Positions 29,846-34,682 of a stretch of DNA of 64,000 nt are shown here, one piece after another. Position 1 is the first letter of the stretch. Every line of letters begins with the position of its first letter. Made by a program: the position numbers and the translations under genes. Source of the DNA: Capsulimonas corticalis. GTDB lineage: Bacteria; Armatimonadota; Armatimonadia; Armatimonadales; Capsulimonadaceae. The DNA lies in assembly GCF_003574315.2 (NCBI RefSeq), contig NZ_AP025739.1, forward strand, positions 2,418,001 through 2,482,000, written 5' to 3'. Under the pieces are notes generated by a model. The model worked only from the letters and a program-made list of their open reading frames with translations. It did not search any database and was not told where the DNA came from.

Positions 29846-31579
29846 TTAACGCACGAAGTAATGCCAGGTGTATTTCAAATCCAGGCACTGCTTGGGCGTC
29901 ATCTTCACCGTCCAGCTGGCTTTGCCAATTCCATTGAAGTGATTCCACCATTCCTGGCTGCTGATCGGCGGCGCGTCTTCGCTGTCGAGGGTGCTGAGTT
30001 GTTCGACTTTGCCGGGAGCGCTCGCCGTATCCAGCATGCCGAGCACCTGCCTTGTGACCTCCAGGTTGATCTCCTGATTTTCGTAGTTGGTGATGGTCAG
30101 CATGCCGGCGATGTCCACGCGGTCGTAGCTGACGCCCGCCCAGGTCGCGGCGTTGGCTGTGCGCTTGGCTTCCTTGCTGTTTTTGAAGACTTTGACGTTG
30201 ATCGCCGGCGTCAGCGGCAGGTCGGTCGTTCCGCCGATAGCGGCGTAGGACATGAGGCCCTGCGCGATCAGGCGTCCATCGCGCAGCACCAGCGCGGGCG
30301 CGGTGGTGAGCGGCGCGTTGTTGCTGTTGACGAGGCGGATCTTGTGCATGACCGGAGAGGCGTCCACCAGTTTCGGCTCATTATTATTTCCGTAGTTGTT
30401 GAAGCCGTAGTTGCTGTTGAGGTAGGGGCGCACCTCCAGCGGCGGAACGGCGGGGAGATCGAGTGTGTAAACGTCGGAGTAGGGGATGGTGTAATCGCTG
30501 ATCGGGACGACCATGCGCTCGCCCTTTTTCAGCGTGATATGCGAGACGGTGAAGACAAAGAGGTCTTCATTCCCCGCCGCGCCCGTGACGGCGGGACCCG
30601 ACGGCTCCGCCTGGCTTGCGTCTGAGACAGCGCGATAGGCGCTCTGTGAGGCGAGAGCATTGGAGAACGCGTAGCCCATACGCGCGCCGCCGCTTGGACT
30701 GAAGAGGGGCGAGAGCTTGGCGGCGGTATCCTGAAGGGCGATGGGATCGACGCTGCCGGCCATCGCAAAGGTGGGCGCGCCGATGACGAGGTTGACGGTG
30801 ACGTCGTTCAAGTCGATCATCTCGTTCGCGAGCGTCGCTTCCAGCTGGACATGCGCGCGCCCCTTGCCGTCCAGATCGATCTTGTAACTGGGCAGCCACC
30901 GGATACCTTTCTCCAGGTAAACCATGCCGACCTGCGCTTTATCCGCGTGGCCGCCGCTCCAGCTGAGATGCATCGTGAGACTGCGCCGCTCGATGTCGTC
31001 GCTCACTTCCGGATGAAAATCGCCTTTGAACGACACGCTCTGGATCCGATCGATCGGAAACGCCAGCGTTCCTCCGGCGGCCTGCTTCAACAGGACGATC
31101 GACGGCGTTAAGGGCGGGGGAAGAATACGCTCACCGGAGATATTGTCGCTCATCGGCTCTGGCCGTGGGGCGTGGGGGATGCCGATCACGACGGCGTCGA
31201 ACGTGTTATTGCTCGTGTCGGTGATCTGGACGCTCGCGCCGGGGTTGGCGTCGAGCATCTCCCGAATCGTCGTGGCTGTGCGCGCCGTCGTGGCGGGGCG
31301 CTCGCTGGCGACCACCGAAGTCAGCTTGACGTGCGTGTCGCCGGAGTAGGGCCAGAACGTTCCCAGCACCGGGATGGGAAGCTCGTCGAGCGCCACGTTG
31401 CCGGCTACGTCCGTCGCCGCCGATCCCTCGCGCAGCAAAAACGCATGCCCGTCTTTGAAGACGGTGATTTCCCGAACGGGAAGTTTCGTGAGCGGTGTCG
31501 CCTCCGGAGCCGCCGCGAGGCTGGGCGCGCAGAGGACGGCGCAGAGTGTCAGGCATTGCAGGAATGAGTGCTTGATCAT
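29846..31579 (-). CDS. Exported DUF4139-like protein
   Basis: 577 residues from the ATG at 31579, preceded by AGGAGAG; an open frame further upstream is not translated in my reading. A signal peptide (cleavage near LAAAPEA, about residue 24) directs it to the periplasm or surface. The N-terminal part has LPVREITVFKDGHAFLLREG and GTFWPYSG strands, and the middle has YLEKGIRWLPSYKIDL, LEATLANEMIDLNDVTVNLV and IGAPTF, the central strands of DUF4139. The C-terminus has LTITNYENQEINLEVTRQVLG. DUF4139 proteins are large beta-rich proteins of unclear function, some related to mucoidy. It is divergent from a TPR gene with a 200-bp spacer. Confidence 0.75.
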   Translation of the reverse strand: MIKHSFLQCLTLCAVLCAPSLAAAPEATPLTKLPVREITVFKDGHAFLLREGSAATDVAGNVALDELPIPVLGTFWPYSGDTHVKLTSVVASERPATTARTATTIREMLDANPGASVQITDTSNNTFDAVVIGIPHAPRPEPMSDNISGERILPPPLTPSIVLLKQAAGGTLAFPIDRIQSVSFKGDFHPEVSDDIERRSLTMHLSWSGGHADKAQVGMVYLEKGIRWLPSYKIDLDGKGRAHVQLEATLANEMIDLNDVTVNLVIGAPTFAMAGSVDPIALQDTAAKLSPLFSPSGGARMGYAFSNALASQSAYRAVSDASQAEPSGPAVTGAAGNEDLFVFTVSHITLKKGERMVVPISDYTIPYSDVYTLDLPAVPPLEVRPYLNSNYGFNNYGNNNEPKLVDASPVMHKIRLVNSNNAPLTTAPALVLRDGRLIAQGLMSYAAIGGTTDLPLTPAINVKVFKNSKEAKRTANAATWAGVSYDRVDIAGMLTITNYENQEINLEVTRQVLGMLDTASAPGKVEQLSTLDSEDAPPISSQEWWNHFNGIGKASWTVKMTPKQCLDLKYTWHYFVR

Positions 31580-32794: not shown

Positions 32795-33886
32795 ATGAAG
32801 ATACAAATCAAATCGCTACGCGCCGTCAACATCGGCCCGCTCAAAGACGTCACCCTGGACTTCACCGATTCCAGCGGCGCCCCCCGCCAAAACACCCTCC
32901 TTGGCGGCGCCAATGGCAACGGCAAAACCACGGTGCTGGAGTTGATTTTTGGTCTGGCGGAAAGTCTGGATCCAGCTGTGACCTATAAGAACGCTACTCT
33001 TCTAAAACGCGTTCGGGATACAGCTGATCAGTACGCACAGCTTGATTTGGTTATTGACGGCGAGCCGTTTAGTGTGTTTTATGGGGAAAAGCCTTATGAC
33101 GCACAGTTGCCTTTGCAGTATATTGGTGAAGAGACTGAAGGGCATCTTTGGCTAAAAGATAATCCTCATACTCGCTATGGGGATAGTGAGCAAGGAAATA
33201 ACTTAGATAGTCTGAATCGATATTTCTATTTGCGACAAGAAATAGAACGATCCAATAATAAGCTGTTAACATTTGCCCGTGGAGAAAGAACAAAGGCGGC
33301 GGGAGTGTTGAATCTGCCAACATTTCTCTATTTTCCCCATAGTCGCCAACTGATACCGAGCCAAGGCGAAAATGTTCAGCGCGAAGAGACACATTTTGAA
33401 TGGGCTCATCGTTATGAAACGATTGCGACATTTTCAGGATCACTTAGTAGCTATTTAATTTGGCTGGAATATGCGGAGCCGGAAGAGTTTCGTATGGTCG
33501 CAGATTTTCTCAGCGAACAATTTCAAGGGAAGCTCTTTGGGGTTAATCGAAGAGAGTTGAAGGCGATTGTCACTTTGAGTAGCGGCCAAGTCCATAATGT
33601 CGAAGATTTGAGTTCTGGTGAGCAGAATTTACTCATATTACTCTTGGAGCTTCGTCGTCGCCTTTTGCCGGACAGTATTGTGATGATAGACGAAATTGAG
33701 AATAGCCTACACCCTGCATTTCAATACAAGATTGGTTTGGCGTTGAAGAAGTTGCAGGAAGAAATTCCGTTCCAATTGATCGTAACTTCTCATGCGCCCG
33801 CGTTCTTGGAAATCATTGGGGCGGAAAATACGTTATTACTACCTGACCCGCAAATTTATGACACGGATCATCAAGCCGCAGCCTGA
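32795..33886 (+). CDS. RecF/OLD-like AAA ATPase, first gene of a PARIS-like pair
   Basis: 363 residues of an SMC/RecF-type ABC ATPase. Walker A is GGANGNGKTT (37-46, Lys44), the signature is LSSGEQNLL (272-280), Walker B is SIVMIDEIENS (Asp299, catalytic Glu300), and the H-loop is TSHAPAF near residue 330. The N-terminus (IKSLRAVNIGPLKDVTLDF) and the short central insertion match AAA_15/AAA_21 proteins. The next gene encodes a DUF4435/Toprim-like protein and overlaps it by 29 bases, the arrangement of AriA-AriB in PARIS systems, where the ATPase senses a phage trigger and releases the nuclease. Known AriA proteins are somewhat longer. Sequence after about 32960 is visibly AT-richer than the first 150 bases and the flanking genome. 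Confidence 0.85.
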   Translation: MKIQIKSLRAVNIGPLKDVTLDFTDSSGAPRQNTLLGGANGNGKTTVLELIFGLAESLDPAVTYKNATLLKRVRDTADQYAQLDLVIDGEPFSVFYGEKPYDAQLPLQYIGEETEGHLWLKDNPHTRYGDSEQGNNLDSLNRYFYLRQEIERSNNKLLTFARGERTKAAGVLNLPTFLYFPHSRQLIPSQGENVQREETHFEWAHRYETIATFSGSLSSYLIWLEYAEPEEFRMVADFLSEQFQGKLFGVNRRELKAIVTLSSGQVHNVEDLSSGEQNLLILLLELRRRLLPDSIVMIDEIENSLHPAFQYKIGLALKKLQEEIPFQLIVTSHAPAFLEIIGAENTLLLPDPQIYDTDHQAAA

Positions 33887-34682
33887 AACTGCTCCTGACA
33901 TATATGAAACCGGTAACCGGATTGTTGTTCTGGTGGAGGGCAAAGATGATGTTACCGTTTTCAAGAAACTGTTCTTTGATCGTCTCTCGGAAATTGCGTT
34001 CCGGGCAGTCGGCGGTGATAAGAACCTGGAAGGCGAGATCGAACTGCTACGGGGTGAGAAGCTGCCTGGCAAAGTGTTTGGTATTCGAGACCGAGACTTT
34101 CGCAGCGATGAAGAGGTAAAGGCATCTCTGGACGAACCGGATTCGATACTCTTTACGTTGGGTAGATACTGCATCGAGAATTATCTGCTGGAGCCGAGGG
34201 CGGTTTTGCAGGTGCTGGACGATGTATTGAATGAGAGTTGTCCGTGGTCTTCCGTGGAAGAAACCGATGCGTTCTTGTTACAGCTTTGCTCGGAGTTGTG
34301 CCTGATGATGGCGGCGAATTGGGTTTTGCGTGAGGCTGGTCTCTATGCCCGCAGCTTCACCCTTGGCGATCAGGCGAGCGAGAAGGAAGTCATTGTTGAG
34401 CGAACAGCACGGCATCTCGGGAAGTTGAGACCTGAAACTCGGATAGCAATCGAAGAGAAAGAATCGAGTATTTTGGAGCGGCTGCATTCGATCGATACAG
34501 CCTACACGCGCATCAATGGAAAGCATTTGCTGCATCGTCTCCACCTCGGCGCCATGGAAATCGGTTTGGGCGTCCAGAAAACGTCGTTTTTTAACCTGCT
34601 GCTCGCACAGATCAAGCAGCAAAATCTCATCCACGCGGATTTGCGCGAAATTGTCGAGCAAAAAATATTAGCTGGGAGTTGA
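33858..34682 (+). CDS. DUF4435 Toprim-like protein, second gene of a PARIS-like pair
   Basis: 274 residues from the ATG at 33858, inside the end of the ATPase gene; a longer frame opens at 33792 but its extra residues are not protein-like. NRIVVLVEGKDDVTVFKKLF carries the Toprim Glu27, and VFGIRDRDF carries the Asp78-x-Asp80 pair, so the metal-binding core looks intact. The rest, GRYCIENYLLEPRAVLQVL then a long helical tail to LREIVEQKIL, matches DUF4435. In PARIS the AriB Toprim nuclease cleaves host tRNA after release from AriA. Other DUF4435-ATPase pairs are uncharacterised, so naming this ariB would go beyond the evidence. There is no Shine-Dalgarno, consistent with translation coupled to the ATPase gene. 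Confidence 0.82.
   Translation: MTRIIKPQPETAPDIYETGNRIVVLVEGKDDVTVFKKLFFDRLSEIAFRAVGGDKNLEGEIELLRGEKLPGKVFGIRDRDFRSDEEVKASLDEPDSILFTLGRYCIENYLLEPRAVLQVLDDVLNESCPWSSVEETDAFLLQLCSELCLMMAANWVLREAGLYARSFTLGDQASEKEVIVERTARHLGKLRPETRIAIEEKESSILERLHSIDTAYTRINGKHLLHRLHLGAMEIGLGVQKTSFFNLLLAQIKQQNLIHADLREIVEQKILAGS

Follow-up and report, generated by a model that had tools for sequence, protein, structure and literature searches.

A free-standing PARIS-type gene pair of the short-AriA branch in Capsulimonas corticalis

Do two overlapping genes of Capsulimonas corticalis, one for an ABC ATPase and one for a DUF4435/Toprim protein, constitute a PARIS system, and to which branch would it belong? The window analysed here is a stretch of 64,000 nucleotides of this genome, and a preliminary description had read the two genes as a PARIS-like pair. 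Both lie on the plus strand and share 29 bases (33858‒33886), in the layout that had been described. A longer AriB frame opens with the ATG at 33792; however, 33858 is the better AriB start, since the same start (MT..IKP) is used in a second Capsulimonas genome, where the overlap is 32 bases. The features of the pair are as follows.

32795‒33886, plus strand: ariA-like gene, ABC ATPase of the OLD/PtuA/AriA type (363 aa, ATG start)
32906‒32929, plus strand: Walker A GANGNGKT, AriA residues 38‒45
32975‒33334, plus strand: hypervariable region of AriA, residues ~61‒180, candidate sensor/trigger region from the comparison of two Capsulimonas alleles
33608‒33625, plus strand: ABC signature LSSGEQ, AriA residues 272‒277
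33677‒33694, plus strand: Walker B IVMIDE, AriA residues 295‒300 (D299/E300)
33858‒34682, plus strand: ariB-like gene, DUF4435/Toprim nuclease (274 aa, ATG start)
33936‒33938, plus strand: Toprim Glu27 (Glu26 of E. coli AriB)
34089‒34097, plus strand: Toprim Asp78-x-Asp80
34164‒34184, plus strand: DUF4435 motif R103-Y-C-I-E107-N-Y109

AriB matched the PADLOC models AriB (1.1e-14) and AriAB (7.5e-17), with no further PADLOC matches, and Pfam DUF4435 at 38.3 bits. Its predicted model (pLDDT 88.6) has the fold of a PARIS effector, superposing on E. coli AriB (PDB 8ux9_A) over almost the whole chain (Z 15.3, 241 residues, rmsd 4.2); the next folds were OLD (Z 8.7) and Gabija (Z 6.3). A profile comparison with long-type AriBs matched in the Toprim half (98.5%, E 4e-15). 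Sequence searches of PDB were weak: AriB as a single query gave no usable match, and a six-row AriB profile reached E. coli AriB at no better than E 0.06. The assignment of AriB therefore rests on the fold match and the HMMs. D78, D80, R103, E107, and Y109 are invariant in 37 AriB sequences and E27 is nearly so; Glu27 and Asp78-x-Asp80, which had been called intact, align with the Toprim acids of the relatives.

Walker A, the signature, Walker B, and H333 are likewise intact in AriA. In the 34 ATPases compared, the key residues of the signature and Walker B are invariant, Walker A is nearly invariant, and H333 is one or the other, which bears out the earlier reading of the ATPase motifs. AriA scored 58.4 bits for AAA_15 and 56.6 bits for AAA_21 in Pfam, and 77.5 bits for PtuA versus 62.4 bits for AriA (E 1.6e-17) in PADLOC. 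The predicted AriA model is of lower confidence in parts (pLDDT 69.7, residues ~109‒214 mostly poor); its Z-score is 20.9 against PtuA and 19.4 against AriA, and the top Foldseek rows are PtuA. The slight lead of PtuA over AriA in sequence and in the predicted fold seems to be a tie rather than a contradiction. Since the ATPase alone is indistinguishable from PtuA, the DUF4435 partner settles the family of the pair.

PARIS was originally defined with a detection rule that combines an ATPase gene scoring at least 32 bits for AAA_15 or at least 27 bits for AAA_21 with an adjoining gene scoring at least 27 bits for DUF4435 (PMC9122126). All three scores of the overlapping pair (58.4, 56.6, and 38.3 bits) exceed these cut-offs, and the Walker motifs, the signature, and the Toprim acids are those of an intact PARIS. 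The preliminary description had offered itself to refutation by an ATPase outside AAA_15/AAA_21 or by a DUF4435 core lacking the Toprim acids, and it survived on both counts. Since the family E-values range from 1e-14 to 1e-17 and a same-site copy exists in another species, the pair is far beyond chance. The short-AriA PARIS-type pair of this window is real and intact. Its assignment draws directly on the gene pair, overlap, families, folds, motif conservation, phylogenetic position, and the same-site allele in a second species. The pair is a genuine member of the PARIS type but a largely expected one, ordinary in kind, and we consider it quite probable that it works as a two-gene abortive-infection module of the short-AriA branch.

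The pair stands between the gene of a TPR protein upstream and that of an ECF sigma factor downstream, and it is richer in AT than its neighbours (G+C 46% in ariA and 51% in ariB versus 61‒65% in both neighbours and 61% in the window); its place between these genes and its AT-richness had been noted before. PADLOC gave no match among ten flanking proteins (~26 to 43 kb of the window), for which Pfam returned alcohol dehydrogenase, RecO, TrpA, and similar families. Since the ten neighbours include no other defence gene, the pair is a lone cassette, and the defence island of the preliminary description is not upheld. Its reading as acquired DNA holds only in part: the AT-richness fits, whereas the two Capsulimonas genomes carry the pair at one and the same site. 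No RM or BREX genes were found near the pair, PglZ was absent from the searched host genome, and two strong N6-methylase (HsdM-type) matches lie far away, so a PARIS that guards restriction could do so here only in trans. Promoter and terminator scans around the pair were near chance level. In the intergenic segment before ariA (32742‒32795), a TATGAT box and the start context are conserved in both Capsulimonas genomes. An inverted repeat, CGCGAT...ATCGCG, also precedes ariA in the window and is not kept in the second genome.

An alignment search of a genome collection of 84,980 species yielded 43 loci. A single motif pattern of this branch retrieved them, and what they consist of should not be taken as a survey of PARIS at large. 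In nearly all 43, the gene of a related ATPase, for the most part 344‒390 aa long (E. coli AriA, 464 aa), is immediately followed by the DUF4435 gene or forms a fusion with it. AriB alone, as a single-protein query, found nothing in the genome contig or viral contig collections, and in the plasmid and the phage collection there was a single weak match each. Many of the pairs are part of BREX operons, with PglX and PglZ as neighbours, and a few follow an HsdM-like gene of type I. Both trees place the window pair outside the well-supported BREX/HsdM-linked clade and near other Armatimonadota sequences, with some long branches nearby that make its exact position unsure. The pair belongs to the short-AriA branch (~350‒390 aa), which includes the Salmonella BREX pair, and the trees thus substantiate the divergent branch that had been suspected.

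Several loci deserve separate mention. Two Armatimonadota loci (L059:2646-4573 and L060:2413-4295) carry short-AriA PARIS pairs near the Salmonella BREX type (~43% in AriA), which sit behind a type I HsdM-like gene in place of BREX. In two other Armatimonadota assemblies (L056:3660-4731 and L057:3013-3540), the ariB frame is interrupted or shortened while the short ariA upstream is open, and decay and assembly error are indistinguishable as the cause. An IMG/VR viral contig (L111:1647-3841) contains a PARIS-like pair with a longer AriA of 442 aa.

In the second Capsulimonas genome (G021), we infer the gene order TPR, ariA, ariB, sigma from two contigs that each end inside ariA. Since the pair occupies the same site in both genomes, it is at least as old as the genus or has been repeatedly exchanged within it. 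No exact empty site turned up: in the family members G020, G022, G023, and G025, the sigma gene is preceded by different genes. The G021 contigs, C524 (end of L048) and C354 (start of L049), stop almost at one point of ariA (residues 245 and 253), which gives the impression that the assembly broke on variation in this gene. A gene matching window positions 29846‒31732 (no Pfam match) is present in G021 as two tandem copies (L048:1-941 and 976-2691), one of them cut by the contig end, and as a single copy in the window.

The two alleles differ unevenly. Amino-acid identity between the window and G021 is 75% for the TPR protein, 47% for AriB, and 96% for the sigma factor, and in AriA it is 53% of aligned positions over residues 1‒245 and 80% over residues 253‒363. 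Residues 1‒60 of AriA are 87% identical and the C-terminal core is conserved. Between them, residues ~61‒180 retain 3‒11 of every 20 residues, versus 15‒20 of 20 in residues 1‒60, and largely coincide with the low-confidence part of the predicted model. This variable middle region may be the sensor. Both alleles are AT-rich (40% G+C in the N part of G021 ariA), and both have open frames with all motifs kept and an amino-acid change well below the synonymous change. Synonymous change in ariAB is close to saturation (pS 0.63‒0.81 versus 0.33‒0.63 for neighbouring orthologues), level with the upper end of what the neighbours show or beyond it. Positive selection between the alleles was considered and is not supported, since amino-acid change is below synonymous change and the synonymous sites are nearly saturated. 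The divergence fits both fast evolution and an old allele exchange.

The expected marks of a PARIS system include sequestration of AriB by an AriA hexamer and triggering by an anti-restriction protein (Ocr). In the model of E. coli PARIS, AriA holds AriB, a phage protein frees it, and the AriB dimer cuts tRNA (PMC11455837; PMC12409363). By analogy, the AriA described here would be an ATP-binding ABC ATPase, probably oligomeric, that keeps AriB inactive and recognises a phage product or protein, perhaps via its variable middle region. Sensing would release AriB, which would dimerise and, with its two-metal Toprim site, cut host RNA, most likely tRNA, and translation would then stop before the phage matures. 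Oligomerisation, sequestration, release, and tRNA cleavage are thus carried over from E. coli, and abortive infection, in which AriA would detect a phage protein and set free a Toprim nuclease that cuts tRNA, seems the most likely function. In E. coli AriB, K60 and K64 hold the anticodon loop and, as judged from their joint mutation, are needed for defence (PMC12409363). In a tentative low-identity alignment, K60 corresponds to K55 here and to His in G021, and K64 to Glu60 here, its position being Glu or Leu across the two Capsulimonas alleles. Since this lysine pair is only half kept, the RNA target may differ from that in E. coli. A trigger differing from that of known PARIS, as first suggested, is plausible. 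A bolder proposal, to which we give rather little credence, is that, in a free-standing short-AriA lineage, AriB and the middle region of AriA diversify together while staying at a single chromosomal site, which would yield species-specific triggers and RNA targets, unlike E. coli PARIS.

The missing second lysine could also be read in favour of a PARIS-like pair in which AriB attacks DNA, the substrate of OLD and Gabija GajA, instead of tRNA. In the fold comparison the OLD Toprim domain ranks second, and D-x-D stands here in place of the D-x-E in the printed stretch of E. coli AriB. However, the fit to E. coli AriB is far better and spans the whole chain, and D-x-D is common to the BREX-linked relatives of the branch and hence not peculiar to this pair. 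DNA cleavage is therefore unlikely. A Septu- or retron-type system, in which a PtuA-like ATPase has adopted a DUF4435 effector and follows another activation logic, is very improbable: the known partner of PtuA is the HNH protein PtuB, whereas the partner here is DUF4435/AriB with no HNH family match, and the PADLOC scan of the flanks was without a defence gene. PtuA is indeed the top single ATPase HMM and leads the Foldseek rows, but the PtuA and AriA structures are almost tied.

It is also quite unlikely that the pair is a non-functional remnant or a chromosomal stress module without a role in defence. Its isolation among ordinary genes and the defective ariB of two Armatimonadota relatives (L056 and L057) would suit such a view. 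Against this, both Capsulimonas alleles are open, with all motifs and the low amino-acid change described above, and the pair is AT-rich and more diverged than most of its neighbours, as is often the case for defence genes. We thus prefer the PARIS-type abortive-infection module. The short-AriA PARIS tested in Salmonella has resisted activation so far, and we know of no trigger for the short-AriA branch. A free-standing Armatimonadota pair with a same-site sister allele lends itself to natural chimeras, by which one could learn what part of AriA recognises the phage and whether the AriBs differ in target; the interest of the pair lies in its fast-changing candidate sensor region and in the nature of the trigger.

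The closest experimentally tested short pair is that of the Salmonella type I BREX locus, STM4494/STM4493 (L023), which resembles the window pair in the length of AriA (363 aa) and AriB (~270 aa), the overlapping genes, and the motifs; the AriAs are 24% identical, and the AriBs 34% in their Toprim part. It showed no activity against any phage tried under the conditions used and no response to Ocr or Gp5 (PMC11341690). The Salmonella pair is embedded between pglX and pglZ. The window pair, by contrast, is not surrounded by BREX genes, its genome lacks PglZ, and it branches outside the clade of the Salmonella pair. Type II PARIS of E. coli B185 (PDB 8ux9, 8v45-8v49) likewise consists of two genes for an ABC ATPase and a DUF4435 Toprim nuclease, and its AriB has the same fold, with E26 and D88 aligned to E27 and D78 here. 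On the other hand, its AriA of 464 aa is ~100 residues longer, its K64 is not kept here, and the AriBs are only ~12% identical. PtuA of Septu and of retrons Ec83/Ec78 has the ATPase fold and the top single HMM in common with AriA, but its partner is the HNH nuclease PtuB instead of a DUF4435 protein. The OLD nuclease and Gabija GajA also combine an OLD-family ABC ATPase with a Toprim domain that partly resembles the fold of AriB (Z 8.7 and 6.3); in these proteins the ATPase and Toprim are fused in one chain, whereas they are encoded by separate genes here.
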